The translations under genes were made by a program, and so were the position numbers. A stretch of DNA of 64,000 nucleotides from Pusillimonas sp. GTDB taxonomy: Bacteria; Pseudomonadota; Gammaproteobacteria; Burkholderiales; Burkholderiaceae_B. The notes below the pieces were generated by a model. The model saw only the letters and a list, made by a program, of their open reading frames with translations. It ran no database searches and had not been told where the DNA came from. Location: the NCBI RefSeq assembly GCF_029263785.1, contig NZ_JAJUFE010000007.1, positions 1 to 64,000 of the forward strand. The letters run 5' to 3'. Below are positions 15,641 through 57,132 of the stretch, piece by piece; position 1 is the first letter of the stretch; each line of letters begins with the position of its first letter.

Positions 15641-15675
15641 ACCGGGTTTGGTGCGTTAATCTGTATCTGACTGAT

Positions 15676-16335: not shown

Positions 16336-16365
16336 GAATAGTTAATTGATGAGTGACGCCACGGA

Positions 16366-16394
16366 TTGACATGGATTATAAACCCCACTACATT
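16366..16394 (+). promoter_or_regulatory. Strong sigma-70-like promoter of the ring-cleavage operon
   Basis: TTGACA at 16366-16371 and TACATT at 16389-16394 are separated by 17 bp. Transcription would start near 16401, inside the left arm of the inverted repeat described next. Confidence 0.65.
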
Positions 16395-16396
16395 AA

Positions 16397-16440
16397 ATCG
16401 ATATTAATGGCTGAAATCGAAATTTAAAAGGAATATCGAT
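16397..16440 (+). promoter_or_regulatory. Inverted repeat ATCGATATT...AATATCGAT spanning the leader and start codon
   Basis: Perfect 9-bp arms lie at 16397-16405 and 16432-16440, with a third, near-identical direct copy ATCGAAATT at 16416-16424. The right arm overlaps the AAGGA ribosome site region and the ATG of the LigA-like gene. It may be a GntR operator over the start site, or an mRNA stem masking the start codon. Confidence 0.55.
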
Positions 16441-16747
16441 GGGAATCCAGGATACAGACCGCACTTTGCCGTCAAATCGCATGGTGTTCGAACTCCGACG
16501 CGACGAAGAGCGATATCGGCAATTCCAGCAAGACATCGAAGCCTCGATGGAACATTACGGCCTAAGCGAGGCCGAGCGCCAAGCCTGGCGAAATATGGAC
16601 ATATCAGGACTCGCGCGGCTGGGCGTGCATCCCTATTTCCTGCCCCAGATCAGCCGCCTGTTCAAAGGCGGCGGCTACAACCACAACAACAGCGACGCCG
16701 CCCGGCTCTACGCCGAAAAAATGGGTATCGTCTCGGAGGACAACTGA
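16439..16747 (+). CDS. LigA-like small (alpha) subunit of an extradiol dioxygenase
   Basis: 102-aa helical protein of the LigA superfamily (protocatechuate 4,5-dioxygenase alpha chain). It has the typical AERQAWRNMDISGLARLGVHPYF segment that forms the lid over the active site of the beta subunit. It lies 2 bases before the LigB-like gene, which supports an alpha-beta pair. The substrate is not set by sequence. Confidence 0.85.
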   Translation: MGIQDTDRTLPSNRMVFELRRDEERYRQFQQDIEASMEHYGLSEAERQAWRNMDISGLARLGVHPYFLPQISRLFKGGGYNHNNSDAARLYAEKMGIVSEDN

Positions 16748-16749
16748 AC

Positions 16750-17607
16750 ATGGCAAAGCTCGTAGCAACTTTGGGCATCGCCCACGCGCCAGGCGTCACC
16801 GGCTGGATCGATCGGGCTCCCAAAGAGCAGCAAGAAGGCGTTTTGGCCGGATATCAGGAATTTCGGCGCCGCATGGAAGTTCTCAAGCCAGATGTCGTGA
16901 TTGGCGTGGCCAACGATCATCTGCTGAATTTCCCCATGGAAAACGTCCCCGACTTCTGTGTCGGTATCGGCGATCACTGGAAAGGTCCGGCACCGTGGTT
17001 CAAGGACTGGCTGAACGTCCCCGATTACGAAATCAAGGGTCATCGCGAGCTGGGTCGCGCCCTGGTGCGCGAATCAGCCAAGGCTGGTACCAATCACGCC
17101 TTTGCCGAAGAACTGCTGTTCGACGACAACTGGTCGGTTCCGCTGAAGTTCCTTTTCCCGAAGTATGACGTGCGATTCGTGCCCATTCACATGAACTGCA
17201 TCGTCCCGCCCCTGCCTACAGCAACACATTGCCTCGAGGTCGGCGCGCAGCTGGCACGCATCATCAAAAGCTTCCCAGGCGAAGAACGCGTCGTGTTGAT
17301 GGCCACCGGCGGCCTGTCACACGATCCGGGTGGCCTCGATTACTTTACCGTCCACGAAGAATTCGACCGCTGGTTTATGGAGCTTCTCGAAACCGGAGAC
17401 CTGGAAAAGGTCCGTAAAGAAGCCACCTTCGAAAAGATGCTCACCGGCGGTGACGGCGGCGCGGGCGAACTGCTGGCGTGGCTTGTTGCCATGGGCGCCG
17501 CAGCCGAGCAAGGCAATTCAAAGGCGGAAAGCGTTTTCTATGTGCCGTCGGTTCCGATGCGCTGCGGTATGGGTGGTTCGTACTGGGCTCTTCCGGAGGC
17601 TGCATGA
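16750..17607 (+). CDS. LigB-family extradiol ring-cleavage dioxygenase (beta subunit)
   Basis: 285-aa non-heme iron dioxygenase of the class III extradiol type. Residues expected for iron and catalysis are all present: His12 (GIAHAPG), His57 (ANDHLL), Glu240 (GGAGEL) and His191 (GGLSHDPGG). They align with LigB His12/His61/Glu242/His195. It should open a catechol-like ring next to one hydroxyl. Likely substrates by family are protocatechuate, gallate or an aminophenol-type compound; the adjacent amidase-like gene favours a less common substrate. It ends in an ATGA overlap with the next gene. Confidence 0.88.
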   Translation: MAKLVATLGIAHAPGVTGWIDRAPKEQQEGVLAGYQEFRRRMEVLKPDVVIGVANDHLLNFPMENVPDFCVGIGDHWKGPAPWFKDWLNVPDYEIKGHRELGRALVRESAKAGTNHAFAEELLFDDNWSVPLKFLFPKYDVRFVPIHMNCIVPPLPTATHCLEVGAQLARIIKSFPGEERVVLMATGGLSHDPGGLDYFTVHEEFDRWFMELLETGDLEKVRKEATFEKMLTGGDGGAGELLAWLVAMGAAAEQGNSKAESVFYVPSVPMRCGMGGSYWALPEAA

Positions 17608-18269
17608 ACCCGGCGCAGACGACACTCGACGGAGCACTGAAAGAAGCCTTGCGTCCTGACGCATCGGCGTTGCTGGTCATCGACATGCAGAACGACTTCT
17701 GCGCACCCGGTGGCTACATTGATAAAGTCATGGGCAAGGATATCTCTGCGGTCGCCGGAATATGCGACAACCTGAAGCAGTTGGTGCAGACAGCCCGCTC
17801 GCGCAAGATCCCCGTCATCTGGATTGCCGCTGATTATTCTCACGACCGCATTCCGGCATCGATGCTGCGCAAACTCAGGCAACGCGGTGTTACCGCGGTA
17901 TGCTGCGAGCCCGGCTCTTGGGGCGCCGACTGGTTCTGTGTCCGACCCGATGATGGCGAAACGGTCATCGTCAAACATAATTACAGCGGGTTCTCGGGCA
18001 CAGATCTGGAATCCACCCTTCGCTCTCATAACGTCGAAACGCTGGTGCTCACTGGTGTACAAACGCAAATCTGCGTCGAATCCACCGCCCGCGAAGGCCA
18101 TTCTCTGGGATACACCTGCGTCGTGCCCAAAGACGCCGTGGCGTCCCACACTCCTGATCTGCATGACGCCAGCCTGATGAACATGCAGTTTTTATTTGGC
18201 GAAGTCTGCGGCACGCAAGACATCCTGTCCGCGTGGTCCAGAACGCCCTCTTCCCTATCCACTAACTGA
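17604..18269 (+). CDS. Cysteine hydrolase (isochorismatase-like, putative amidohydrolase)
   Basis: 221-aa protein of the isochorismatase/nicotinamidase fold with the complete catalytic triad Asp27 (LLVIDMQND), Lys124 (VIVKHNY) and Cys157 (GVQTQICVEST). Such enzymes hydrolyse amides such as maleamate, nicotinamide or carbamoyl compounds. The ATG at 17604 overlaps the dioxygenase stop. An upstream extension to 17478 lies inside the dioxygenase gene and is rejected. Its place after a ring-cleavage enzyme suggests that the fission product carries an amide or carbamoyl group. Confidence 0.88.
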   Translation: MNPAQTTLDGALKEALRPDASALLVIDMQNDFCAPGGYIDKVMGKDISAVAGICDNLKQLVQTARSRKIPVIWIAADYSHDRIPASMLRKLRQRGVTAVCCEPGSWGADWFCVRPDDGETVIVKHNYSGFSGTDLESTLRSHNVETLVLTGVQTQICVESTAREGHSLGYTCVVPKDAVASHTPDLHDASLMNMQFLFGEVCGTQDILSAWSRTPSSLSTN

Positions 18270-18282
18270 AAGAGCTTTACTG

Positions 18283-18729
18283 ATGCTACCTAAACGAATC
18301 AATCTGGACGTTGTTCGCCAATCCATGGGCGAGTATGCGGACACCAAAAAGACTGCTGAAGAACGCGGCAAGATCTACGAAGACCTGCTGGGTTTCGTTC
18401 CACCGCGAATCGAAGCACGCGTGAACGTTACCGGCGCGCTTGACCCGAAAATGGTCGACCTGCAAGAGCAAATGCGCGAACACGCCATGTACCCCGAGAG
18501 CTTCGACGTCAAGACCACTCAGCTGATGTTGTTTGGCATGCTGCTGATTTCGCTTAGCGACGCTGCCGTTCTTCATGGCATTGCCGCCCGTCGGGCAGGC
18601 GCCACATGGAAAGAAATGCAGGATGTCGTCAATTTGACTTTCCTGTTCCGTGGTTTGTCGGCTGCCAACCGTGGCGCCGAAATTCTGGCCAACATTGCCG
18701 AGCGCGAAGCGGCACAAGAAAACAAATAA
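18283..18729 (+). CDS. Carboxymuconolactone decarboxylase-like protein
   Basis: 148-aa all-helical protein of the CMD/AhpD fold (MREHAMYPESFDVKTTQLM, LHGIAARRAGATWKEMQDVV). It lacks the CxxC of AhpD peroxidase partners, so a decarboxylase or isomerase-like role in the ring-fission pathway is more likely than a redox role. The ATG at 18283 follows AAAGAG. It is the last gene of the operon and is followed by a long palindrome. Confidence 0.82.
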   Translation: MLPKRINLDVVRQSMGEYADTKKTAEERGKIYEDLLGFVPPRIEARVNVTGALDPKMVDLQEQMREHAMYPESFDVKTTQLMLFGMLLISLSDAAVLHGIAARRAGATWKEMQDVVNLTFLFRGLSAANRGAEILANIAEREAAQENK

Positions 18730-18735
18730 GTCGTC

Positions 18736-18813
18736 GCCGGTTTCAAGAACGTGGCGCTTTACGCGGCGGAGTATCTTCGCCACGTAAAGCGCCACTTCTA
18801 TTTCGACACCGGC
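18736..18813. terminator. Nested 78-base palindrome between convergent genes, likely bidirectional terminator
   Basis: GCCGGT (18736-18741) pairs with ACCGGC (18808-18813). Inside lies a perfect 13-bp stem, GTGGCGCTTTACG (18751-18763) with its complement at 18783-18795, and inside that GGCG (18765-18768) pairs with CGCC (18778-18781). It fills the gap between the ends of the CMD-like gene and boxB. There is no T tract, so the terminator role is inferred from position. Confidence 0.6.
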
Positions 18814-18841
18814 CAATCATGCGGCCATGAGATTCGGAAAC

Positions 18842-20335
18842 TCAGTTTCCGGCCGCTGCATCATTGGAGTAGATCTTCACATATTCGAAGTCGCCCGGCT
18901 TGCTGTTGATGCCAACTCGCGGCGGGGCTATCCAGCTTGCATACTTTCCTGGCTCGTAGACCGGCTTCATCAGGGAGTTGATGAAATCGTGATCCGCTTC
19001 ATTGCATAACCATTCGTCGCGACGCGCTTCGAATTCCTCTGCCGAGATCAGCTCACCGTCGGGAGTGATGCTGTGACCGGCGAACTCGCCAATCTTGCGG
19101 TTGAAGCCTTTATGGGGCTGCGTAAACCGGAAATTGATGCCGGCGTTGGCAATGATCTTGTTCCAGCGATCAATGCCGCCCTGACAATCCTTGATGTAAT
19201 CATCCAGCAAACGACTGTTGATTGCGGCCAGCGCGGGCTGCTCTTCAGTGACGATCTCTCCACCGCGAACCGTCATCACCGGGTAGGTGTCGTTGGTCAG
19301 CACGTGATCATCATCGATACGGGTTTCTTCGTATCTGCCTTTCAGGCCGGCGCTATAAAGCTCGGCACCGTTGCTCGATATCTCGGAGCCAAACAGATCG
19401 CGTGTCACCGACATATGGAAGTTGGCCTTTCGTTGCAGGGTGGGCAGATCAATCACGCCCAGGGCGCGAATGGCATCAACGTCATAGGGGTCGGTGATAC
19501 CCGCCGCGTTCATGGCCTTGACGGTGGCTTCGACGGTCCGCCCGACTCCGGTCTCGCCAACAAAAAGATGATGCGCTTCTTCGGTCAGCATGAATCGACA
19601 GCTGCGGGACAACGGGTCAAAACCTGATTGTGCCAAAGCCGCCAGCTGCATCTTGCCGTCTCTGTCGGTAAAGTAGGTAAACATGAAGAACGACAACCAG
19701 TCCGGGGTTCGCTCGTTGAATGCCCCGAGAATCCTGGGATTGTTCTTGTCCGCAGAACGACGCTCAAGCAAGGCCTTCGCTTCATCCCGCCCGTCGCGGC
19801 CGAAATACTTGACCAGCAGATACACCATGGCCCACAAGTGCCTGCCCTCTTCGACGTTTACCTGGAACAAGTTACGAAGATCATAAAGGGACGGTGCCGT
19901 TTGGCCGAGATAACGCTGCTGTTCAACGGAAGCAGGCTCGGTATCACCTTGCACCACGATCAGACGACGCAGTATCGAGCGATACTCGCCCGGAACCTCT
20001 TGCCACACGGGTTCACCCTTATGGCGTCCGAAGGCGATGGTCCTGCCCTCTTCCTTGGGCGCGAGCAGGATTCCCCAGCGATACTCGGGCATCTTGACGT
20101 GATCAAAGACCGCCCAGCCGCTTGGGTCTACACCGACGGCAGTGCGCAGGTATACCTCGGCGTCCTGAAATCCTTCAGGACCGGCCTCTTTCCACCAGTC
20201 AAGATAATCGGGTTGCCAGGATTCCAGGGCCCTTTGCAGTTGACGGTCGTTGCTCAGGTCGACGTTGTTGGGAATCTTGTCGTCGTAATTGACTTCCACA
20301 TATCTGGTGCCGCGAATGGCTTCGCTTTCGCTCAT
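18842..20335 (-). CDS. boxB: Benzoyl-CoA 2,3-epoxidase catalytic subunit BoxB
   Basis: Diiron oxygenase that epoxidises benzoyl-CoA in the aerobic box pathway, receiving electrons from BoxA. The 497-aa sequence has the helical-bundle diiron motifs EEGRHLWAMVYLLVKYFG and EEAHHLFVGETG, and the BoxB-typical segments YFTDRDGKMQL and DYIKDCQGGIDRWN. I chose the ATG at 20335 with CGGGAGAA upstream, over an extension to 20362. BoxA, BoxC and benzoate-CoA ligase are not in the window, so this copy stands alone. Confidence 0.92.
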   Translation of the reverse strand: MSESEAIRGTRYVEVNYDDKIPNNVDLSNDRQLQRALESWQPDYLDWWKEAGPEGFQDAEVYLRTAVGVDPSGWAVFDHVKMPEYRWGILLAPKEEGRTIAFGRHKGEPVWQEVPGEYRSILRRLIVVQGDTEPASVEQQRYLGQTAPSLYDLRNLFQVNVEEGRHLWAMVYLLVKYFGRDGRDEAKALLERRSADKNNPRILGAFNERTPDWLSFFMFTYFTDRDGKMQLAALAQSGFDPLSRSCRFMLTEEAHHLFVGETGVGRTVEATVKAMNAAGITDPYDVDAIRALGVIDLPTLQRKANFHMSVTRDLFGSEISSNGAELYSAGLKGRYEETRIDDDHVLTNDTYPVMTVRGGEIVTEEQPALAAINSRLLDDYIKDCQGGIDRWNKIIANAGINFRFTQPHKGFNRKIGEFAGHSITPDGELISAEEFEARRDEWLCNEADHDFINSLMKPVYEPGKYASWIAPPRVGINSKPGDFEYVKIYSNDAAAGN

Positions 20336-20674
20336 GATGTTCTCCCGTGGGGGGTTCGTCACCCCGAAATACTTTCATCCTCTGCGGGTGGCCCCGCCCT
20401 TGGCTAAAACTGCAATTTGATGCATATTTCAGCCTGGATATGCATGATAGTGCTTTCAACAGAGCGAGCTTTGACAAAAATCAAACTTTTGATTCAAGGC
20501 TGTCAGCGAACCGGGAGCGTCTGATGGCCAGCGGGGGGTAAGAACACTGAAACAATGCCCCTTGCGCAATGCTCGTTTGAGTTATCTAGCGCGTCAGGGG
20601 ATACCGTCTGGGGGTTCCAACTGGCAAAGTACCTGTCAGAGCCCCCCAGAGAACATGCTACACAGAGAATACTT
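20336..20674. promoter_or_regulatory. boxB upstream region with TGCA repeats and an FNR-like box
   Basis: No gene is supported in this 339-bp gap. TGCA occurs at 20411, 20421 and 20441: TGCA-N6-TGCA, then a third copy two helical turns further on, two of them as ATGCAT. TTGACAAAAATCAA at 20471-20484 matches the FNR/ANR consensus TTGAT-N4-ATCAA at 9 of 10 positions. A possible 8-bp stem, TCTGGGGG/CCCCCAGA at 20607-20614 and 20643-20650, lies just after the katE stop. Confidence 0.5.
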
Positions 20675-46559: not shown

Positions 46560-46579
46560 CACTGCAAAGTATTGCAGTG
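46560..46579. promoter_or_regulatory. Perfect inverted repeat CACTGCAA-AGTA-TTGCAGTG
   Basis: 8-bp arms with a 4-base spacer in the divergent gap between arsC and the livH start (46688). No T tract follows, so an operator is more likely than a terminator. It could serve either direction. Confidence 0.5.
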
Positions 46580-46687
46580 ATTCTATACGAGCAGGAATAT
46601 TGCATTCTTGCGCCGCGCTGTAATACCCTATTTCGGTCCTGCGGACTTCAACAATTAAAGCTTAAAACAAATACACCGGAGACAAGA

Positions 46688-47608
46688 ATGGAGCTGACGC
46701 TGTTGATCGAGCTGGCGCTGAACGGGCTCCAGTTCGGCCTCATGCTGTTCTTGCTGGCGGCGGGCCTGACGCTCGTCTTCGGCATCATGGATTTCATCAA
46801 CCTTGCCCACGGTTCCCTTTACATGCTGGGCGCGTATTTCGCTGCGTCTTTTGTCATGGCTACCGATTCGTTCTGGCTGGGTTTGTTGCTGGCGGTGGCA
46901 GCAACCATGGTGGCGGGGGTCATCCTCGAAGTTCTGGTCTTTCGAAGGCTGTACCAGCGCAACCACATGTCCCAGGTGTTGGCCACCTTCGCACTGATAC
47001 TGATTTTCAATGAAGGCGCACGTATGGTGTGGGGCGAACAGCCCCTGCGCCTCAACACCCCTGCCCTGCTCTCGGAGCCCGTCCAGATAATGCCGGGCTT
47101 TTATTACTCATCGTTCCGTCTGTTCATCATTGTCACGGGGCTGGCCGTTGCAGCGGCCCTATATGTGCTGGTTACCAAAACGCGGGTGGGCATGCGGGTT
47201 CGCGCCGGCGCCTCGAACCGCGAAATGGCAACCGCCATGGGCGTAAACATAAAAACCATATTCACATTGCTCTTTGCCTTCGGTGCCGCGCTGTGCGCCA
47301 TTGCAGGTGCCTTGCTGGGAACGATATTGTCGGTTCAGGTAGGCATGGGCGAGAGCATATTGATACTGGCTTTCGTGGTGATTGTGGTGGGTGGAATCGG
47401 CTCCATTCGCGGTGCACTCATCGGCTCAATACTTGTCGGCTGCGTAGACACCATCAGCCGGACGCTGCTGCCTTCAATGTTGCACGCAGTCATGCCGCCA
47501 GCTGTGGCGTCAAGTCTGGGGCCGGCGCTGGCTTCAATACTGATCTATCTCCTTATGGCCGCAGTGCTGTTCTTCAAGCCAGAAGGCCTGTTCCCTGCCC
47601 GCAGCTAA
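46688..47608 (+). CDS. livH: ABC transporter permease, branched-chain amino acid type (LivH-like)
   Basis: 306-aa permease with about eight helices and LivH signatures ALNGLQFGLMLFLLAAGLTL, GIMDFINLAHGSLYMLGAYF and VVGGIGSIRGALIGS. The ATG at 46688 follows GGAGA; upstream codons from 46577 are not membrane-like. HAAT-family transporters of this type often import aromatic acids, and the Rieske operon downstream makes that likely here. Confidence 0.92.
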   Translation: MELTLLIELALNGLQFGLMLFLLAAGLTLVFGIMDFINLAHGSLYMLGAYFAASFVMATDSFWLGLLLAVAATMVAGVILEVLVFRRLYQRNHMSQVLATFALILIFNEGARMVWGEQPLRLNTPALLSEPVQIMPGFYYSSFRLFIIVTGLAVAAALYVLVTKTRVGMRVRAGASNREMATAMGVNIKTIFTLLFAFGAALCAIAGALLGTILSVQVGMGESILILAFVVIVVGGIGSIRGALIGSILVGCVDTISRTLLPSMLHAVMPPAVASSLGPALASILIYLLMAAVLFFKPEGLFPARS

Positions 47609-47617
47609 GGAGCCACC

Positions 47618-48583
47618 ATGCACAGTACTTTGCACCACCGTCTGTCAGGTCCCTGGATGGCTGTCCTGCTGGTCCTGCTTTTCGCCTTCCCACCCGTGGC
47701 CACATTCTTCGGCCAGGATTTCTACATCAGTTTTGGCTCTCGCCTGATCATCTTCGCCCTGGTTGCCTCCAGCCTCAATCTCATCCTGGGCTTTGGCGGC
47801 ATGGTCAGTCTGGGTCATGCCGCCTATTTTGGGGCCGGGGCCTACGTGGTGGCCATACTCATGTATCACGACATTGCGTCGGCATGGATCAGCTGGCCCG
47901 CCGCCGTGTTATTGGGCGCAGCACTGGCCTTCCTGATCGGACTTGTCTGCCTGCGCACACGAGGCGTGTATTTCATCATGATCACCCTGGCCTTTGCGCA
48001 AATGACCTATTACATCTTTGTATCGCTACGAAGCTACGGGGGTGACGACGGGCTGGCCATTACAAGACGGTCTTCCTTCGTTCTGGATCTGGCTTCCGAC
48101 ACGGTCTTTTACTATGTCTGCCTGGTCCTGACGGTGCTGGTACTCTTTTTCATGCATCGCCTCATCAATGCCAGGTTCGGTCGCGTGTTGCAGGGCATAC
48201 GCGAAAACGAAACACGCATGCTGGCCATTGGATACCCGGTGTTTCGTTACAAGCTGGTTGCCTTCGTGATAGCGGGCGCCATAGCCGCACTCGGAGGCGC
48301 ACTGTTCGCCAACCAGAACTACATGGCCAGTCCCAGCCAATTGCACTGGATGCAATCGGGCACACTGATGGTCATGGTACTGGTGGGTGGGCTGGGATAC
48401 TTCTTTGGCGGGGTCATCGGCGCCGTGACCTTGCTCTTGCTCGAAGAAATACTCATGGCGTACACCACCCACTGGGCCTTTTACCTTGGCTTCATCCTGC
48501 TGGCCATTGTGCTGTTCCTGCCCAACGGATTGGCCAGCCTTACCTTGCGCAGAACCGAAGGCGCTACCGGAGTCAGGTCATGA
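47618..48583 (+). CDS. livM: ABC transporter permease, branched-chain amino acid type (LivM-like)
   Basis: 321-aa second permease. Typical segments are LIIFALVASSLNLILGFGGMVSLGHAAYFGAGAY and GRVLQGIRENETRMLAIGY, the latter the coupling loop to the ATPases. RBS AAGGAG. It ends in an ATGA overlap with livG. Confidence 0.92.
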   Translation: MHSTLHHRLSGPWMAVLLVLLFAFPPVATFFGQDFYISFGSRLIIFALVASSLNLILGFGGMVSLGHAAYFGAGAYVVAILMYHDIASAWISWPAAVLLGAALAFLIGLVCLRTRGVYFIMITLAFAQMTYYIFVSLRSYGGDDGLAITRRSSFVLDLASDTVFYYVCLVLTVLVLFFMHRLINARFGRVLQGIRENETRMLAIGYPVFRYKLVAFVIAGAIAALGGALFANQNYMASPSQLHWMQSGTLMVMVLVGGLGYFFGGVIGAVTLLLLEEILMAYTTHWAFYLGFILLAIVLFLPNGLASLTLRRTEGATGVRS

Positions 48584-49335
48584 CAGCACCACTACTCGAG
48601 TTACGTGGTCTGGTGCGTCGCTACGGCGGCATCCTGGCCACCGATCACCTCGACCTGACGGTTATCGAAGGCGAAACCCATGCCATCATCGGCCCGAACG
48701 GCGCCGGCAAGACCACCCTTATCCAGCAAATCTCCGGCGGCCTCAGCCCCGACGAGGGCAACATCATTTTTCAGGGCAAAGACATCACGCATCTTCCCAT
48801 GAACCAGCGTGTTCATCGGGGCCTTGCACGCTCTTACCAAATTACCAACATCTTTCGTCAATGCACCGTCCTGGATAACCTTGCTTTGGCGGTTCAGGCA
48901 AGGTCGGGTTCCAGCATGCGGTTCTGGCGACCGGCAATGTCAGAATCTCGGGTCATTGACGAAGCGCGCGCCCTGGCCGATAAAATCGGTCTTGGCGGAC
49001 GCCTTGACACCTTGTCGGGAAACCTGGCCCACGGGGAGCAGCGCCTGCTTGAAGTCGGGCTGGCCCTTGCAACACGTCCCCGTCTGTTGCTGCTCGATGA
49101 GCCCATGGCAGGCATGGGCCCCAAAGAGTCTCGCAGTCTGATGCCGCTCGTGCAATCGCTTAGCGAAGAACTGTCTGTACTGCTCGTCGAGCACGACATG
49201 GAGACCGTGTTCCAGTTGGCCGATCGCATCTCGGTACTGGTATCGGGCAGAGTCATCGCCACGGGCACCCCAGACGAAATTCGCCACAACGCCGAAGTAC
49301 GCAAGGCCTATTTGGGCGATGAGGTCAGCGCATGA
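48580..49335 (+). CDS. livG: ABC transporter ATP-binding protein (LivG-like)
   Basis: 251-aa ATPase with Walker A GPNGAGKTT, signature NLAHGEQRLLEVGLAL (variant LAHGEQ for LSGGQ, usual in LivG), Walker B LLLLDEPMAG and switch His in LLVEHDME. Pairs with LivF. Overlaps both neighbours by 4 bases. Confidence 0.93.
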   Translation: MTAPLLELRGLVRRYGGILATDHLDLTVIEGETHAIIGPNGAGKTTLIQQISGGLSPDEGNIIFQGKDITHLPMNQRVHRGLARSYQITNIFRQCTVLDNLALAVQARSGSSMRFWRPAMSESRVIDEARALADKIGLGGRLDTLSGNLAHGEQRLLEVGLALATRPRLLLLDEPMAGMGPKESRSLMPLVQSLSEELSVLLVEHDMETVFQLADRISVLVSGRVIATGTPDEIRHNAEVRKAYLGDEVSA

Positions 49336-50042
49336 AACCTTTGCTCGAAGTCCACGCCATTGAAACCGCCTATGGCAGCAGCCAGATACTGTTTGGCATC
49401 GACCTGACCATCCAGGCGGGGCAGACAGCCACGCTGCTGGGACGTAACGGAATGGGGAAAACAACCACTGTGCGTTCCGTACTTGGTCTGACACCCATCC
49501 GTAGTGGGACAATCCGCTTCGACGGACACGACATCGGGCGCTGGAGCGCTGATCGCATTGCACGTCTTGGCGTTGCAGTAGTTCCCGAAGGCAGGCATAT
49601 CTTCCCCAACCTGTCGGTCCGCGAAAATCTTGTCGCCTTTGCTTGCAACCGCAGTGGAACCGATCAACCCTGGACACTCGAACGCGTGTTTGCGCTGTTT
49701 CCGCGTTTGCGCGAACGCGCAAACAACATGGGCAATCAGCTTTCCGGAGGCGAACAGCAGATGCTGGCCATTGGGCGCGCCCTGATGACCAACCCAAAAC
49801 TGCTTATTCTTGATGAAGCGACCGAAGGGCTGGCCCCCCTGATTCGCGAAGAGATCTGGCAATGCCTGAACCAGCTTCGCAATATGGGGCAAACAACCCT
49901 GGTCATAGACAAATACGTTCAAAGGCTTATCGAGCTGGCCGACCAGCACACCATCATCGAGCGCGGCCAGGTGGTATGGAACGGAAGCTCGGATACCTTG
50001 CGACAGTCGCCTGAAATCTGGGAACGCTACGTGGGCGTTTGA
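49332..50042 (+). CDS. livF: ABC transporter ATP-binding protein (LivF-like)
   Basis: 236-aa ATPase with Walker A GRNGMGKTT, signature NQLSGGEQQMLAIGRAL and Walker B LLILDEATEG. The switch region reads LVIDKYVQ: the His of the usual EH(D/N) is replaced by Lys, a feature also seen in some LivF-type subunits. Last gene of livHMGF. Confidence 0.92.
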   Translation: MKPLLEVHAIETAYGSSQILFGIDLTIQAGQTATLLGRNGMGKTTTVRSVLGLTPIRSGTIRFDGHDIGRWSADRIARLGVAVVPEGRHIFPNLSVRENLVAFACNRSGTDQPWTLERVFALFPRLRERANNMGNQLSGGEQQMLAIGRALMTNPKLLILDEATEGLAPLIREEIWQCLNQLRNMGQTTLVIDKYVQRLIELADQHTIIERGQVVWNGSSDTLRQSPEIWERYVGV

Positions 50043-50085: not shown

Positions 50086-51066
50086 CTATGCCTGCAAGGT
50101 TTCCAGGGGCGTGCGCCCGTAACGCTCTCGATATCGGGTGCAGAAACGGCCCAGATGCGTGAAACCCCAGCGCAGTGCGACATCCGTCACTCGGGTACCC
50201 GGTGGTGCTTGCGTCAGGTCGATATGTGCTCGCTGCATGCGTTGCTCTCGCACGTAGGCCATCGGCGACAGGCCATGGTGCTCTTTGAACGCGGCACAAA
50301 GACCCCGCACGCTCGAGCCGCTGGCCTGAGCGATACGGCCAAGGTCGAGGGGGTCCTGCAAATGAGCGATGATGAATTCCTCGGCCAGCCTCACATTGCG
50401 GCGAGAGGCGCCACTACGCTTTTGCAACAGCTCGGAATAGTTATGTCGCTGACAGAGCAGCAAGTGCTGAATCAGGGTTTCTTCCTGTGCATGGACCCAC
50501 TTGCCTGGCGGACGGTTCTCTGTAAGCTGGAACCAGCAGAGCAAGGCGCTGATCTGATGCTGCCACGAGCGTCCGTGCGGGGTATCCAGGGCGAACTCGG
50601 GGCAAAACTCTACCGGCTTGTCCAGCCGCGCTCCCAGGAGGTTGCTGCACGACGCCTCAATCCGCTCTCGCGGTATCTTGAGCAGTAGCTGCTCACAGCC
50701 CTCGCTCCAGTCCAGACGTATCGGAAGAGTGGGCGATATCAGCGCCCCCATACGCGAATCGGCAGCCACTATCGAATCGCCTACAGAGATCTGCGCCGAA
50801 CCGTGCAGGGGCACCTGAAAAAGCAGGAAACGCCGTAGTTCGCCAGGTGCAATGTGAACGGCCGCGCCATAGCGCAGCAACAAAAGCGAGACCTCTCCCA
50901 ATTGCAGACACCGTAAAAAGGAATCGACCTTGCCGGAGCGCCAGACCAGATCGTGTTCTTTCAGCGCGCCCGTAGTGGCCAGCTTGGCCTCTTGGGGGTC
51001 TGTGGATGCAAACAGGGGTGACGCATTGTACAGCGGAGTCAAGCCCGATTTAAACCAAGGTTCCAT
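50086..51066 (-). CDS. AraC/XylS-family transcriptional regulator
   Basis: 326-aa activator with an AraC-binding-like N-terminal domain and a C-terminal double HTH. The end region VTDVALRWGFTHLGRFCTRYRERYGRTPLETL closely follows the XylS/benzoate-regulator pattern. It diverges from the binding protein and dioxygenase operon, and XylS-type sites lie between them. The start at 51066 (MEPWFKSGL) is preferred to 51150, but its ribosome site is weak. The inducer is probably an aromatic carboxylate (inference). Confidence 0.9.
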   Translation of the reverse strand: MEPWFKSGLTPLYNASPLFASTDPQEAKLATTGALKEHDLVWRSGKVDSFLRCLQLGEVSLLLLRYGAAVHIAPGELRRFLLFQVPLHGSAQISVGDSIVAADSRMGALISPTLPIRLDWSEGCEQLLLKIPRERIEASCSNLLGARLDKPVEFCPEFALDTPHGRSWQHQISALLCWFQLTENRPPGKWVHAQEETLIQHLLLCQRHNYSELLQKRSGASRRNVRLAEEFIIAHLQDPLDLGRIAQASGSSVRGLCAAFKEHHGLSPMAYVREQRMQRAHIDLTQAPPGTRVTDVALRWGFTHLGRFCTRYRERYGRTPLETLQA

Positions 51067-51105
51067 CGTACGGCCCTCATAAGCGGTAAATGCACAGGCA
51101 AATGT

Positions 51106-51140
51106 TGCACGAGCTGGCTCAAATTTGCCAGAAAAGGATA
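51106..51140 (+). promoter_or_regulatory. XylS-type direct-repeat activator sites upstream of the dioxygenase operon
   Basis: TGCA-N6-GGCTC at 51106-51120 and TGCC-N6-GGATA at 51126-51140 match the XylS half-site TGCA-N6-GGNTA and are 20 bp apart. A further TGCA lies at 51091. The proximal site ends about 110 bp before the start codon, with TACACA/CATATA -10-like sequences at 51158-51170. Confidence 0.6.
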
Positions 51141-51249
51141 GCCGCGCCAATTCAACCTACACATCATATAAGGAAGCTCTGCACTTCGGAACTGCCTTAG
51201 ATCAGGGCTTTCCACAGTACAACTGCATAAAAATACGGAGACAACGCAT

Positions 51250-52440
51250 ATGAAACCCGCCTCGTTCAAGCTTGGCCTGCTCGCTGCTGCGTGTGCAGCC
51301 GCACTAACCCTCTCGCCGGCCCATGCCGCGGATTCCATCAAGGTAGGCTTCCTGTCGACTCTTTCGGGACCGGGCGGCGCCCTGGGAATCGATATCCGCG
51401 ACGGCTTTCAACTGGCACTAAAGCATGCCGGGGGCAAGCTTGGCGACCTGGACACCGAAGTCATCGTCGTCGACGATCAACAAAAGGCCGATATTGGCCG
51501 GCAGGCTACCGACCGGCTTATCAAGCGTGACCGCGTCGACGTCATGACCGGAATGGTGTTTTCAAATGTCCTTTTACCACTGATGCCCAGCATCCTGTCC
51601 AGTGACACGATCTATATCTCGACCAACACTGGTCCGGCCGATTACGCCGGCAAGGACTGCAATCCGAATTTCTTTGTGGTCTCTTGGCAAAACGAAGACA
51701 TTCCCGCAGCCATGGGCAGATATGTCACCGAACAAAAGCACAAGAGCGTTTTCCTGATTGCACCCAATTACCCTGGGGGACGCGAGTCTATCGGTGGTTT
51801 CAAGCGTCTGTACAAAGGCGAGATCGCTGACGAAGTCTACGTCAAGCTTGGCCAGCTTGATTTTTCGGCAGAGCTTGCCCAGGCTCGCGCATCGGGTGCC
51901 GATTCCGTGTTCTTCTTCCTTCCCGGGGGCATGGGAATCAGCTTCATCAAGCAGCTCGAAAGCTCCGGCCTATCCAAGAACATGAAGATCTATATGCCGG
52001 GATTCTCGGGCGACCAGGACACCATCAAGGCTGTCGGTGACCCCATGGTGGGCACCTTCAACTCTTCGCAATGGTCACCTGATCTGGACAACCCGCAGAA
52101 CAAGAAGTTTGTGGCCGATTTCGAAAAGGAATACGGACGCATCCCCACGCTGTACGCGTCGCAGGGCTACGACGCCGCCATGTTGCTCGATGCAGCCGTA
52201 CGAGATGTCAAGGGCAAGATCGAAGACAAAGACGCGTTCCGCCAGGCACTGCGAGCCGCAAATTTCAAATCGGTGCGCGGCGATTTCAAGTTCAACACCA
52301 ATCAGTACCCCATCCAGGATTACTACCTGCGAGAAGTCATCAAGGACGACCAGGGCCGCATCACCAACAAAGTCGTAAGCACCATTCTGGAGGACTATCA
52401 AGACCCGTTCGCCGCCGAATGCAAGATGGGTCAGTCATAG
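51250..52440 (+). CDS. ABC transporter periplasmic substrate-binding protein (LivK-like)
   Basis: 396-aa periplasmic-binding protein with a Sec signal (AAACAAALTLSPAHA-A) and the type I fold (KVGFLSTLSGPGGALGIDIRDGFQLAL, YASQGYDAAMLLDAAVRDV). It delivers ligand to LivHMGF. It is separated from those genes by the regulator but placed first in the dioxygenase operon, which suggests the ligand is the dioxygenase substrate. Confidence 0.92.
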   Translation: MKPASFKLGLLAAACAAALTLSPAHAADSIKVGFLSTLSGPGGALGIDIRDGFQLALKHAGGKLGDLDTEVIVVDDQQKADIGRQATDRLIKRDRVDVMTGMVFSNVLLPLMPSILSSDTIYISTNTGPADYAGKDCNPNFFVVSWQNEDIPAAMGRYVTEQKHKSVFLIAPNYPGGRESIGGFKRLYKGEIADEVYVKLGQLDFSAELAQARASGADSVFFFLPGGMGISFIKQLESSGLSKNMKIYMPGFSGDQDTIKAVGDPMVGTFNSSQWSPDLDNPQNKKFVADFEKEYGRIPTLYASQGYDAAMLLDAAVRDVKGKIEDKDAFRQALRAANFKSVRGDFKFNTNQYPIQDYYLREVIKDDQGRITNKVVSTILEDYQDPFAAECKMGQS

Positions 52441-52464: not shown

Positions 52465-53769
52465 ATGTCGTACAGCAACGAACGCATCGCCGAACTCGTC
52501 CGGCCCGACAGCGTCCACAAGTCGGTCTACACTGACCCCGAGCTGTTCGAGCTGGAAATGGACCGGATCTATGGTCGTGCCTGGATTTACGCAGGGCATG
52601 AAAGCCAGGTGCCGAATGTGGGCGATTATCACACTACCCTCATCGGCAACCAGGATGTCATCATGGTACGTGGCACCGACAACAAGGTCCATGTGCTTTA
52701 CAACCGCTGCCCGCACAAAGGTGCCATGCTTGTGGCGCGCGGAAGTGGCAACGCGGGCAAGTTCTTCAGATGTCCGTACCATGCCTGGACATTCAAGCTT
52801 GATGGCAACCACCTTGCTGCGCCAATCCGCCGGGGTTTCGAAGGGACCACCTTTGATCCGGCCTCACCCGAGTTCTCGATGCGGCCGCTTGCCCGTGTCG
52901 AAAGCTACCGTGGGTTCGTGTTTGTCAGCCAGGCCGCCGAGGGCCCCGCCCTGCTTGATTTCCTCGGCGGGGTGCGTTCTTCCATCGACAACCTTTGCGA
53001 TCGCTCACCCTTGGGCGAAGTCGAAGTGGCCGGCGGGTCGTTCAAGGTCATGCAACCTTCCAACTGGAAGGTCTTCTACGAAAACCTGCACGACACCATG
53101 CATGCCAATGTCACGCACGAATCATCGTATTCGTCGGCCCGCAAGCAAGCCGAAGCGTTTGACAAGATGCCCCTTGAGCTGCACATCATGGATGGCAACG
53201 GCGAACCCTACGAATTCTGGGAAAAGCTCTCGCTGGTCGCATTTGATTACGGCCATGGCTATATGGAAGGCATTTTCAACCCGGGCGCCATCGATACCGA
53301 TCCCGTCACGCGAGCCCATTACGAATCTCTGGTCGAGGCATACGGCAAGGAGCGCGCGCTGGCCATCCTCGGAGAAAACCGCCACAACACCATCATCTAT
53401 GGCAGCGGATCCCCGCACACCGTCTTTCAGCAGTTCAGGGTCATCCGCCCCATTGCAGTAGACCGTACCATGGTCGAGATCCAGGTCTTCAAGTTGAAAG
53501 GTGCTCCGGAAGCAATCTTCAAGCGGGGCCTCATGTACGCCAATCTGATCAATTCGCCTTCGTCCAACGTCATGCCCGACGACCTCGAGCTGTATGGTCG
53601 TTGCCAGCAGGGAAACACCACACATGGTGGGGACTGGGTAAGCCAGCACCGCTATGCAGGTACCGACAGGCCGATTGAAGGTGGCATGACCTCCATCAAC
53701 GGCACCAGCGAATTACCGATGCGCAACCAGTTCAAGGCCTGGAAGCAATACATGCTTGGCCAGGTCTGA
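52465..53769 (+). CDS. Aromatic ring-hydroxylating dioxygenase, alpha (Rieske) subunit
   Basis: 434-aa catalytic subunit. The Rieske [2Fe-2S] site is Cys82-x-His84...Cys103-x2-His106 (RCPHKG, RCPYHAW). The mononuclear iron site is Asp210-x2-His213-x4-His218 (LHDTMHANVTH). It adds both atoms of O2 to an aromatic ring to form a cis-diol. The length and the partner beta subunit fit benzoate-, anthranilate- or halobenzoate-type enzymes. The substrate is not defined by sequence. No ferredoxin or reductase gene is in the operon. Confidence 0.92.
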   Translation: MSYSNERIAELVRPDSVHKSVYTDPELFELEMDRIYGRAWIYAGHESQVPNVGDYHTTLIGNQDVIMVRGTDNKVHVLYNRCPHKGAMLVARGSGNAGKFFRCPYHAWTFKLDGNHLAAPIRRGFEGTTFDPASPEFSMRPLARVESYRGFVFVSQAAEGPALLDFLGGVRSSIDNLCDRSPLGEVEVAGGSFKVMQPSNWKVFYENLHDTMHANVTHESSYSSARKQAEAFDKMPLELHIMDGNGEPYEFWEKLSLVAFDYGHGYMEGIFNPGAIDTDPVTRAHYESLVEAYGKERALAILGENRHNTIIYGSGSPHTVFQQFRVIRPIAVDRTMVEIQVFKLKGAPEAIFKRGLMYANLINSPSSNVMPDDLELYGRCQQGNTTHGGDWVSQHRYAGTDRPIEGGMTSINGTSELPMRNQFKAWKQYMLGQV

Positions 53770-53796: not shown

Positions 53797-54330
53797 ATGC
53801 TATTTGATATCGATCTTGACGTTTCTGCGGTCCCGGCCAAGGACGTTACCGTTCCGCTCGAAACCTATCATCGCATCCAGCAATTCATCTACCACGAGGC
53901 GCGCCTGCTGGACGAGCGCCAGTGGCAGGCCTGGCTCGATCTCTGGACCGATGACGGCATGTACTGGATTCCCCAGCAACATGACCAGAACAGCCCTTTT
54001 GACCACATTTCGCTGTGCTGGGATAACGGCATGTTGCGGGAGTTGCGCCTGCGTACCCTGGACCATCCGCGCAATTGGGCGCAGCAGCCCATCACTCATG
54101 CTACCCGCGTGGTCGGCAACGTCATGGTAGACGGCACCGATCCAGACGGCTGCCTTATCGTTCGCTCCGCCTTTCATATGACCGAGTGGCGCAAGGATCA
54201 ACCACGGCATATGGCCGGGTCTTACATCCATAAACTGGTAACCCACGAAGACAGTTGGCGCATCAGGCTGAAGCAGGTGAACCTCGTCAACTGCGATGCG
54301 GTCCATAGTGCCATTCAGGTCTACATATGA
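53797..54330 (+). CDS. Aromatic ring-hydroxylating dioxygenase, beta subunit
   Basis: 177-aa structural subunit of the cone-shaped NTF2-like family (IYHEARLLDERQWQAWLDLWTDDGMYWIPQ, WRIRLKQVNLVNCD). It forms the alpha3-beta3 hexamer with the preceding gene product. RBS AAGGAG. ATGA overlap with the next gene. Confidence 0.92.
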   Translation: MLFDIDLDVSAVPAKDVTVPLETYHRIQQFIYHEARLLDERQWQAWLDLWTDDGMYWIPQQHDQNSPFDHISLCWDNGMLRELRLRTLDHPRNWAQQPITHATRVVGNVMVDGTDPDGCLIVRSAFHMTEWRKDQPRHMAGSYIHKLVTHEDSWRIRLKQVNLVNCDAVHSAIQVYI

Positions 54331-54944
54331 CCGAGGCACACTACGGGGACACCGCCGTATTGGCCCTGCATTATCAAAACGATGTGCTTCATCCCGAAGG
54401 CGTCATTCGTGTCGGCATCGATGCAAACAGCCCTGAACGGGACCGGCTAATCGCTACTGCCGAAGCCCTGCTCGAGCGGGCCCGGTCACGAGAAATGCCA
54501 ATTGTGCACGTTCGGGTCGCCTACCGGCCAGACGGTGCCGACATCATCCGCAATGCACCCATATTTCGCAATGTCGCTGCCCAGGGAGCAGTACAGGACG
54601 GCACCTGGGGTGCCGAGTTTTATTCCAGTCTTGCGCCCCATTACACCAGCCAACGTGAATTTGTTGTCAAGCACTCGCGCATCAATGCTTTTTTTGGGTC
54701 GCAACTGGAAGAAATCCTGCGGGTATTGGGTGTTTCCCGCTTGCTCGTAGCCGGGGTGGCCACGCATTCGGTCGTCGAAAGCACGGTTCGGCATGCCGTG
54801 GATATGGGCTTCGAGGTCGACGTCGCTGCCGACGCCTGCTCTGCGGCCGATCTTTCCGTACACCGCGCGTCCTTGCACAGCATGAGCCTGATTGCGCGCA
54901 TCCTGAGCTCCGCCGACCTGGCGCAGGCCTATCCAACGGAATGA
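54327..54944 (+). CDS. Isochorismatase-fold protein lacking the catalytic Asp and Cys
   Basis: 205-aa member of the cysteine-hydrolase fold. Compared with the intact relative at 17604, the catalytic Asp is His15 (VLALHYQND against LLVIDMQND) and the catalytic Cys is Val149 (GVATHSVVEST against GVQTQICVEST). Lys115 is kept. It cannot work as a Cys hydrolase; a different chemistry or a binding role is possible. It lies inside the dioxygenase operon, coupled to the beta subunit gene by ATGA. Confidence 0.82.
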   Translation: MTEAHYGDTAVLALHYQNDVLHPEGVIRVGIDANSPERDRLIATAEALLERARSREMPIVHVRVAYRPDGADIIRNAPIFRNVAAQGAVQDGTWGAEFYSSLAPHYTSQREFVVKHSRINAFFGSQLEEILRVLGVSRLLVAGVATHSVVESTVRHAVDMGFEVDVAADACSAADLSVHRASLHSMSLIARILSSADLAQAYPTE

Positions 54945-54989: not shown

Positions 54990-55817
54990 ATGACCGACTC
55001 CCGCCCTCTCGTTGATCTGACAGGCAAAACCGCCATCATTACCGGAAGTACACAAGGTCTGGGCGCAGATATTGCCAGAGTATTGGCCCGCTGCGGAGCC
55101 GCGGTAACCATCGTGGGGCGCAACGCCGACAAGGGCAATGAACTCGTGGAATCGCTGCACATCCAGGGGGCCAAGGCCCTGTACAGCTGCACCGATATCC
55201 AGCAAGACGAAGACATCGACGCCTGCCTGCGAAAGACGCTGGAAACTTTCGGACGTCTCGATATCCTCGTCAACAACGCATGCATCTACGAAGATGCCGG
55301 CCTCGCATCCACGCGCGAGCAGTGGCACCACACCTTGGGGGTCAACCTGATCTCTGCAGCCATCTTCACGCAAAAAGCCTGTGCGCTGATGAAGCCGGGC
55401 AGCGTGGTCATCAACCTGGGAAGTACCGGGGGCAAGTTCGGCGCAGCGGGTCGAGCCCTATATCCCGCGTCAAAAGCCGCCATGCTCCAATTCACCAAAA
55501 ACCTCGCTGTCACGCTCGCACCCGACGGCATCCGCGCTGTGGCGGTGTCCCCGGCATGGACATGGTCGCCCTCTGTAGAGCGGCTCAGCCAGGGCTCCCG
55601 CCCGGATGCCGATCGAGTAGGCGCAGCGCTCCACCCTTTGGGGCGGGTCGGACATGGAAGCGAAATAGGCAATGCCGTTGCTTTCCTTGCCAGCGATGCT
55701 GCCTCGTGGATCACCGGAGTCGATATTCCGGTCGATGGCGGCTTCTCGATTCTGGGACCCGACCAGGGACAACCACCCCGGCTATGGTTCGAACGCATTC
55801 TCAAGCAACAAAACTAG
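54990..55817 (+). CDS. SDR-family dehydrogenase, probably cis-dihydrodiol dehydrogenase
   Basis: 275-aa short-chain dehydrogenase with NAD(P) motif TGSTQGLG, NNA in LVNNACIYE, and catalytic Ser and Tyr-x3-Lys (NLGSTGG, YPASK). By position after a ring-hydroxylating dioxygenase it should oxidise the cis-diol to a catechol-type product. Weak ribosome site, 45 bases after the previous gene. Last gene of the operon. Confidence 0.87.
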   Translation: MTDSRPLVDLTGKTAIITGSTQGLGADIARVLARCGAAVTIVGRNADKGNELVESLHIQGAKALYSCTDIQQDEDIDACLRKTLETFGRLDILVNNACIYEDAGLASTREQWHHTLGVNLISAAIFTQKACALMKPGSVVINLGSTGGKFGAAGRALYPASKAAMLQFTKNLAVTLAPDGIRAVAVSPAWTWSPSVERLSQGSRPDADRVGAALHPLGRVGHGSEIGNAVAFLASDAASWITGVDIPVDGGFSILGPDQGQPPRLWFERILKQQN

Positions 55818-55880
55818 CTTATTGGGGTCACATTGCCCCCAGCCCACGCCGCTGGTAAAGTAAATAGTCGGCTCCCGTAT

Positions 55881-55917
55881 GCGCAACGCCTGTTGCGCTT
55901 GGGCCTTTAAAGTTTTT
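55881..55917 (+). terminator. Possible terminator after the dioxygenase operon
   Basis: GCGCAAC-GCCT-GTTGCGC hairpin (55881-55898) is followed after 14 bases by a run of seven T. The distance to the T tract is longer than ideal. It lies 63 bases after the SDR stop. Confidence 0.35.
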
Positions 55918-55932
55918 TTGCGTGTGGGCATC

Positions 55933-56415
55933 ATGAATTCGCTACATTCTTTTCAGGCCAGGTCGATTACCGGCGAACCCGTCGATCTTTCCAGCTATGC
56001 TGGCCAGGTTGCTTTAATTGTCAATGTAGCTTCCAAATGCGGCTATACCCCTCAATACGAAGGCCTTGAGGCGCTTTATCGCGACTACAAGGACCGCGGC
56101 TTTACCGTCTTGGCGTTTCCATGCAACCAGTTTGGCAACCAGGAACCCGGTAACAGTGTCGACATCCTCACCTTCTGCTCTACCGTCTATAAAGCCAGTT
56201 TTCCATTGTTCGAAAAAATCGAGGTAAACGGCCCGCATGCTCACCCGCTTTATAACTGGCTCAAAGAAGAAAAAAGCGGGGTGCTTGGTACCAAAGCGAT
56301 CAAATGGAACTTCACAAAATTCCTGGTGGGTCGCGACGGCCAGGTCATAGAACGCTATGGCTCATCCACCACTCCCGACGAAATTCGCGCCGACATCGAA
56401 AAAGCGTTGGCTTAA
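55933..56415 (+). CDS. Glutathione peroxidase
   Basis: 160-aa thioredoxin-fold peroxidase with the peroxidatic Cys in NVASKCGYTPQYEGL (Cys in place of Sec), the GPx signatures LAFPCNQFGNQEPG and WNFTKFLV, and the Gln and Trp of the catalytic site. The resolving-type Cys in FPCNQF is present, so thioredoxin may be the reductant. The ATG at 55933 is chosen; upstream codons from 55879 are not conserved. Confidence 0.93.
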   Translation: MNSLHSFQARSITGEPVDLSSYAGQVALIVNVASKCGYTPQYEGLEALYRDYKDRGFTVLAFPCNQFGNQEPGNSVDILTFCSTVYKASFPLFEKIEVNGPHAHPLYNWLKEEKSGVLGTKAIKWNFTKFLVGRDGQVIERYGSSTTPDEIRADIEKALA

Positions 56416-56430
56416 CCTTCAAGGAAACTC

Positions 56431-57132
56431 ATGATCGATCTGTATTACTGGACCACCCCCAACGGACACAAAATCACCCTATTCCTTGAAGAAACCGGCT
56501 TGCAGTACAAGCTCATTCCGGTAAATATCGGCAAGGGCGACCAGTTCAAGCCAGAGTTTCTGAAAATCGCCCCCAATAACCGCATCCCGGCCATGGTCGA
56601 CCACGATCCCGCGGGCGGCGGCGAACCCATTTCGGTTTTTGAGTCTGGCGCCATGCTGCTGTATCTGGCCGAAAAGACCGGGCGTTTTCTGCCGACAGAC
56701 CTCCGTGGACGCACCGAGGTCTTGCAGTGGCTGTTCTGGCAGATGGGGGGCCTTGGCCCAATGGCCGGACAAAACCATCACTTCAATGGTTATGCGCCCG
56801 AAAAGATCCAGTACGCCATCGACCGATACGTGGGCGAGACAGGCCGCTTGTATGGCGTCCTGAACAAGCGCCTGGCCGATCGCGAATTTGTTGCGGGCAC
56901 CGAATACTCTATCGCGGACATGGCCTGCTATCCGTGGATCGTATCGCACGAAAAACAAAGTCAGGATCTCAACGACTTCCCTAATCTGAAACGCTGGTTT
57001 GACACCATCGCCCAGCGCCCGGCAACCATCCGTGCGTATGAAATGGCCAAGACCATCAACAGCGGTCCCACCGTGCACGACGAAGAAGCCAGACGCATCC
57101 TGTTCGGCCAAAACGCCCAGACCGTCAGATAA
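56431..57132 (+). CDS. yfcG: Nu-class glutathione transferase / disulfide-bond reductase YfcG
   Basis: 233-aa protein strikingly like E. coli YfcG: IDLYYWTTPNGHKITLFLEE, PNNRIPAMVDHDP, FESGAMLLYLAEKTG and QWLFWQMGGLGPMAGQNHHF. Nu-class GSTs hold two glutathiones and reduce disulfides and organic peroxides. It follows glutathione peroxidase by 15 bases, so the two form a thiol-redox pair. Confidence 0.93.
   Translation: MIDLYYWTTPNGHKITLFLEETGLQYKLIPVNIGKGDQFKPEFLKIAPNNRIPAMVDHDPAGGGEPISVFESGAMLLYLAEKTGRFLPTDLRGRTEVLQWLFWQMGGLGPMAGQNHHFNGYAPEKIQYAIDRYVGETGRLYGVLNKRLADREFVAGTEYSIADMACYPWIVSHEKQSQDLNDFPNLKRWFDTIAQRPATIRAYEMAKTINSGPTVHDEEARRILFGQNAQTVR

Follow-up and report, generated by a model that had tools for sequence, protein, structure and literature searches.

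What does an isochorismatase-fold protein do inside a Rieske dioxygenase operon once the residues by which the fold usually works have been replaced? The question is raised by a stretch of 64,000 nucleotides from Pusillimonas sp. (positions 1 to 64,000 of contig NZ_JAJUFE010000007.1, assembly GCF_029263785.1), referred to throughout as the window, in which the sequence-only reading had noted a protein of this fold lacking the catalytic Asp and Cys. The features on which the analysis bears are these, with positions counted from the first letter of the window:

46577..50042, + strand: Liv/Urt-type ABC transporter genes, two permeases and two ATPases (the first permease and the last ATPase match NCBIfam models)
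50086..51150, - strand: AraC-type regulator, AndR-like (163 bits, below the AndR model cut-off of 350)
51250..52440, + strand: periplasmic substrate-binding protein (PF13458), beside the cassette in many relatives
52465..53769, + strand: Rieske dioxygenase alpha subunit (PF00355 and PF00848)
53797..54330, + strand: Rieske dioxygenase beta subunit (PF00866)
54327..54944, + strand: isochorismatase-fold protein, 205 aa, open frame (PF00857, 128.9 bits against a cut-off of 27; slots His15, His116 and Val149)
54369..54371, + strand: codon cat of His15, canonical Asp slot (read from the sequence)
54672..54674, + strand: codon cac of His116, canonical Lys slot (read from the sequence and aligned to solved relatives)
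54771..54773, + strand: codon gtc of Val149, canonical Cys slot (read from the sequence)
54990..55817, + strand: short-chain dehydrogenase, SDR (PF13561)
17664-18221: isochorismatase-family paralogue L001, with Asp, Lys and Cys in its triad slots (D/K/C)

The gene does lie within a dioxygenase operon, as had been proposed: the alpha and beta genes stand upstream and the SDR gene downstream, and the coordinates show the beta-subunit stop overlapping the start of the isochorismatase-fold gene. The same Liv/Urt-type transporter block is carried by relatives at the loci examined. Downstream of the SDR, glutathione peroxidase and GST-like genes occupy 55879-57132; genes of this kind also follow the SDR in L006, L007, L080, L081, L082 and L119, and are absent from the other operons examined. 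L006 is the operon of Pusillimonas noertemannii DSM 10065. The paralogue L001 belongs to a second, presumably aromatic-type cluster at 16750-20362. Its other members, named from their translations, we take to be a LigB-type dioxygenase-like gene, a carboxymuconolactone decarboxylase-like gene and, on the other strand, a BoxB-like gene.

Alignment bears out most of the original residue assignments. His15 (codon cat) occupies the canonical Asp slot, Val149 (codon gtc) the canonical Cys slot, the VEST stretch is still present, and L001 is intact, with D/K/C in its slots. The further claim that Lys115 is kept had to be given up, as the conserved Lys of solved relatives pairs with the column of His116 and not with residue 115. 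In HMM alignments judged by eye, the Lys residues of triuret hydrolase (TrtA), biuret hydrolase and YecD all align with His116; in the alignment to 3kl2, the Lys is offset from this column by a gap. Residue 115 itself is variable, being K in 32, T in 21, H in 4 and S, I and R in 2 each of the 65 relatives that share both His residues (two more are not listed). With His116 rather than a variable residue 115 in the Lys slot, the triad is replaced in full, giving the combination His-His-Val (H/H/V).

Nor is loss of the Asp, taken alone, confined to this protein. The control set comprised 33 PF00857 loci, 29 from a 60-genome phylum sample and four from the same genome as the window. With 11 of them partial at the first slot, the Asp slot was readable by eye in 22, where it held Asp in 17, Gly in four, Glu in one and His in none. 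A different PF00857 group (L153, L156, L158, L160 and L045) has Gly in this slot, within LIGYQND or a similar motif, and retains the Cys; to judge from the alignment, this group is a separate loss of Asp.

Membership of the PF00857 superfamily is evident from both the sequence profile and the fold, and the Asp-Lys-Cys triad of the PF00857 cysteine hydrolases is absent from the window protein. Annotation nevertheless calls such proteins 'cysteine hydrolase', as in the pCAR1 and Agrobacterium copies. The window protein scores below the curated cut-off of all five NCBIfam models compared (RutB, BiuH, YcaC, PRK11440 and PRK11609), its best score being 79.9 bits for PRK11440, where 195 is required. 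Each of the 57 sequences in alignment A3 has matches at E<=1e-5 to the RutB, PRK11440 and BiuH models, the cut-off comparison applying to the window member only. A profile of the clade matches 36 distinct PDB sequences, and in the five of these alignments that were read, the Asp slot is visible in four, with Glu in one and Asp in three. The structure predicted from 57 alignment rows has a pLDDT of 94.9 and a pTM of 0.92 (an earlier model from 17 rows had a pLDDT of 81.8), with strand 9-14 preceding His15, His116 ending strand 111-116, and Val149 near the start of helix 146-159. Its best structural neighbours are 3kl2 (Z 28.3, rmsd 1.7, 195 residues aligned), 3hu5 (27.1), RutB (26.5) and TrtA (26.3), and the true isochorismatases PhzD, VibB and EntB score 24.5, 24.1 and 23.3. 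Judging by the model, the fold by itself does not select the reaction. The near neighbours do include many amide hydrolases, which speaks for a hydrolase in which the His pair, alone or with the help of a metal, would activate water and open an oxindole lactam, an ester or a lactone supplied by the oxygenase.

Residues at the triad slots were compared among relatives. The set consists of 94 distinct sequences, each 150 residues or longer, from loci fetched by protein or profile together with plasmid and other records; as they were gathered with the window protein or its profile, the sample is biased towards that protein. At the first two slots, 65 of these are His-His (H/H), 26 are Asp-Lys (D/K), one is Gly-Lys, and two are fragments without the first slot; mixed pairs (H/K or D/H) do not occur among the 94. 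Position 15 is His in all 65 H/H sequences and Asp in all 26 D/K sequences, and position 116 is likewise His in 65 of 65 and Lys in 26 of 26. Between positions 8 and 199, with at least 95% agreement required in H/H, these are the sole two positions that are fixed in both groups yet differ between them.

The third slot behaves otherwise. Among the 65 H/H sequences it holds V in 54, I, A and S in three each, and T and C in one each; the catalytic Cys is missing from nearly every clade member, and the catalytic Asp and Lys from all of them. A check on the conservation of His15 and Val149 had been proposed for this protein, and its outcome is divided: His15 is invariant throughout the H/H group, but Val149 is found in only 54 of the 65 and its slot drifts. 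The Agrobacterium plasmid copy L078 has a Cys here, together with His15 and His116. That His15 and His116 are frozen when the Cys slot drifts suggests that the His pair carries out catalysis. The same pattern tells against a protein that is no enzyme at all, that is, one serving the Rieske dioxygenase or the SDR as a chaperone or as a specificity or regulatory subunit, despite the disappearance of all three classic catalytic residues that would suit such a role.

For the hydrolase, the third slot can be read both ways. Some H/H members do present a Ser or Cys in the nucleophile position (L079, L122, L126 and L078), but 60 of the 65 have V, I or A there. Nor is there an invariant metal-site motif besides the His pair, the other common His residues being H22 (58 of 65), H61 (58 of 65) and H147 (53 of 65). 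Gene order adds a point in favour: RutB follows RutA, and the Rhodococcus and Gordonia H/H genes similarly lie downstream of a luciferase-like oxygenase. On balance, a hydrolase seems to us rather unlikely.

The two residue types also separate in a tree. The H/H sequences make up one side of a branch whose support, at 88/72, is moderate, with several rows long-branched, and the switch needs one change; the tree was built from 64 rows under 90% identity, 40 of them H/H, with the triad columns excluded. Values of dN/dS range from 0.072 to 0.166 in eight pairs. Simple decay of an amidase gene, in which the substitutions would mark nothing but loss of function, can draw on one case, a second operon copy in genome G113 (G113:C1:870731-873164) in which the isochorismatase-type gene behind alpha is broken into two frames and contains a stop. 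Against decay stand the open frame in the window, the low dN/dS and the presence of the same His pair in 65 sequences, and we consider it refuted by the last two and its probability negligible. The sequence-only reading had named homologues in the same operon type that keep Asp and Cys as the sign of decay. Such operons were sought, and none was found among the loci read, where no operon of this type keeps even the Asp; the losses of Asp and Cys are common to orthologues, which puts simple decay out. As far as sequences can tell, the H/H/V state is conserved, not decay.

The gene is tied to one type of Rieske dioxygenase. An alpha subunit 67-100% identical to that of the window occurs in 79 of 268 genomes of the family, and all 79 also encode an H/H-type protein of at least 241 bits against the clade profile, a co-occurrence matched by score, with His15 and His116 read in every sequence fetched rather than in every genome. 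The two genes lie within 10 kb of each other for 79 of 81 alpha copies. One exception is genome G229, where the alpha and isochorismatase-fold genes are on different contigs, and the other is the split second copy in G113 described above. In another 24 genomes, the only alpha is of lower identity (43-47% as listed, E<=1e-100). Among these, G238 encodes an H/H protein of at least 225 bits with no alpha beside its gene; of the weaker matches in these 24 genomes, L033, L035 and L036 were read, and all three are D/K. Genome G027 encodes an H/H protein in the absence of such an alpha.

Gene order was compared at 46 loci, some of them from the same genomes. The order alpha, beta, isochorismatase-fold gene, SDR is found at 33, and L112 carries these four genes too, although the script did not resolve whether beta or the isochorismatase-fold gene comes first. 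At five loci, namely L088, L089, L090, L108 and L109, the gene occupies another place within the cluster or close to it and not between beta and SDR; L109 is a short contig on which alpha is absent. The remaining seven have neither alpha nor beta beside the gene; L091, L113, L114 and L116 are H/H, and L115, L117 and L118 are D/K. In L113 and L114, the gene sits between an RhlE-type helicase gene and prfC. In L116 (L116:8321-12883), an H/H/A variant is flanked by an SDR and a TctC-type binding protein, and a LigB-type gene lies beyond. The strict association of the gene with a single type of alpha, together with the overlap of the gene start and the beta stop in the window, is what might be expected of a non-catalytic partner. 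For an obligate subunit, however, displacement from beta at five of the 46 loci and four H/H copies without adjacent alpha or beta are awkward, and with the two frozen His residues they lead us to consider a non-catalytic role unlikely.

Beyond the family the protein is sparse. Six of 398 genomes of the phylum sample match at E<=1e-40, four of them H/H (the genome of the window included in both counts), and in the class sample of 274 that genome is the sole match at E<=1e-30. Plasmid-borne copies are found on pCAR1 and in Burkholderia arboris, Variovorax and Agrobacterium. The copies on Rhodococcus and Gordonia plasmids are H/H/S and come after a luciferase-like oxygenase and before an alcohol dehydrogenase (L079:6879-9829 and L126:5849-8750). 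Genes named for 3-carboxyethylcatechol breakdown adjoin both of these copies.

As for the substrate of the operon, the closest solved relatives of the alpha subunit are 9o71 (E 5e-110) and 7yls/8h2t (3e-108). IadD is an indole-3-acetate dioxygenase whose IAA-pocket residues are named at positions 210, 211, 216, 221, 251, 311, 322, 329 and 362 (PMC10374108). We take 7yls to be this IadD, since its 437-residue chain has, by eye, the residues named in that text at those positions. Seven of the nine IadD residues are identical in the window alpha, again by eye, the differences being Lys322 to His and Phe251 to Asn. The SDR of the operon is 43% identical to that of a Burkholderia pyrrocinia cluster (L130), annotated as AraC, dienelactone hydrolase family (DLH), SDR, styrene/indole monooxygenase, flavin reductase and transporter. 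This gene make-up matches the iif/dho-ipo indole pathway, in which an SDR and a cofactor-independent oxygenase convert indole-2,3-dihydrodiol to anthranilate (PMC12538310). A DLH-SnoaL protein is present in 14 of the 46 loci. Compared with the DLH of L130, the pCAR1 copy is 65% identical and one copy, tentatively of the Achromobacter group, is 70% identical; the IifA-like call for DLH rests on gene order, not on the sequence of IifA itself. A FAD-dependent oxidoreductase related to that on the Agrobacterium plasmid occurs in 11 of the 46 loci.

On pCAR1, about 8 kb separate the operon from antA. Participation in carbazole degradation was considered and found unsupported: Table 1 of the pCAR1 study has no entry for a transcription unit spanning 14440-18860 with either carbazole or succinate, and for ORF21, which its position identifies as the DLH gene, the value in CA10 on carbazole rises from 513 to 1325 (PMC2642839). 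In the genome of the window, no protein matches DLH-SnoaL at E<=1e-80 and none reaches the cut-off for AntA or AndAc, the best scores being 173.7 of 671.9 bits for AntA and 384.5 of 750 for AndAc; two AndAc-like proteins in this genome reach 384 bits of 750.

These relationships suggest to us that the operon is a route from an indole-type acid, probably towards anthranilate, and that the isochorismatase-fold protein would act on the product of the dioxygenase and SDR by means of its His pair. The four H/H copies without adjacent alpha or beta, and the H/H/S copies of Rhodococcus and Gordonia, which sit with other oxygenases, suggest that the reaction may not be bound to indoles. The substrate and every chemical step are what we infer from the fold, the residue switch and its conservation, the co-occurrence, and the relatedness of the alpha, SDR and DLH proteins. 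The ABC transporter would import the indole-type acid, the Rieske dioxygenase would convert it to a 2,3-dihydrodiol, and the SDR would oxidise the dihydrodiol to a 3-hydroxy-2-oxindole-type product. The isochorismatase-fold protein may then remove or rearrange the extra group by decarboxylation, deformylation or C-C cleavage of the retro-aldol type, with His15 and His116 as an acid/base pair or as metal ligands in place of Cys-Asp-Lys hydrolysis. If the SDR product bears a 3-hydroxy and a 3-carboxyl-type group, loss of the group would give dioxindole, the expected substrate of an iif-type oxygenase, and in operons with a DLH-SnoaL protein the next step would lead to anthranilate.

Taken together, the reading is that the protein functions as an enzyme, belonging to an isochorismatase-fold subfamily marked by the pair His15/His116, in an operon that imports and degrades an aromatic acid, most likely of indole type, and that the steps follow the order just proposed; we adopt it tentatively, at a little short of even chances. 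It is doubtful, in our estimate, that the protein is specifically a His-His dyad lyase or decarboxylase that cleaves a C-C bond of a 3-hydroxy-oxindole acid, as part of an undescribed route from indole carboxylic acid to anthranilate found in bacteria like Pusillimonas, in many of their relatives and on plasmids, pCAR1 among them.

Whatever the reaction, the sequences compared here describe a real, conserved and unusual subfamily, in which the catalytic residues of a known fold have all been exchanged. That the protein has a new activity is plausible, and its reaction probably puts an old fold to a new use; the coupled change of Asp to His and Lys to His, seen in 65 of 65 clade sequences, would mark changed chemistry on a common fold. 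Among the literature matches listed (titles and abstract openings), we recognised no description of an isochorismatase-fold gene in such an operon. With 79 of 268 family genomes carrying it, the operon is broadly distributed, and its substrate looks indole-like, so it may matter for how bacteria turn over plant compounds of the auxin type. A guess at the substrate, probably an indole-type acid, is now possible and can be tested.

Several known systems resemble parts of this one. With the iad locus of Variovorax, as presented in the available text of PMC10374108 and PMC12633357, the window operon shares a relative of the Rieske alpha subunit, Liv-type uptake and a likely aromatic acid substrate. 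The iad core (C-K2) described there has an acyl-CoA synthase, a thiolase, an alcohol dehydrogenase and the formamidase-like IadI, and no isochorismatase-fold protein (PMC10374108, PMC12633357). No IadF/IadG-type acyl-CoA synthase or thiolase is named among the scanned neighbours at 46-57 kb of the window. The idea that the operon is the iad locus itself was not taken up, as alphas of its type are 67-100% identical to that of the window, against 43-47% as listed for the IadD-like ones, and the iad core genes, as far as they are described, differ. To the iif/dho-ipo system it is related through the SDR and, in sister operons, the DLH-like protein, both with relatives in the iif-like cluster L130; the first oxygenase there is a flavoprotein in the available description, whereas the window operon has Rieske alpha and beta subunits instead (PMC12538310). 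No isochorismatase-fold gene is annotated in L130.

Within PF00857, the fold is common over nearly the whole chain to the cysteine hydrolases (triuret and biuret hydrolases, RutB, maleamate amidase and nicotinamidase), but theirs is Asp-Lys-Cys where the window protein has His-His-Val. The fold is likewise common to the true isochorismatases PhzD, VibB and EntB, in which the Cys is absent and Asp and Lys are kept; an entry for PhzD D38A among the structural neighbours fits their keeping of the Asp. In the window protein, both of these slots are His. The nearest D/K relatives found are the Cys-less sequences of Binatia type (L010-L015) and Burkholderiales type (L031-L044). The D/K sequences have Val or Ala in the Cys slot (25 of 26), but these Cys-less relatives keep Asp and Lys and fall outside the H/H side of the branch.
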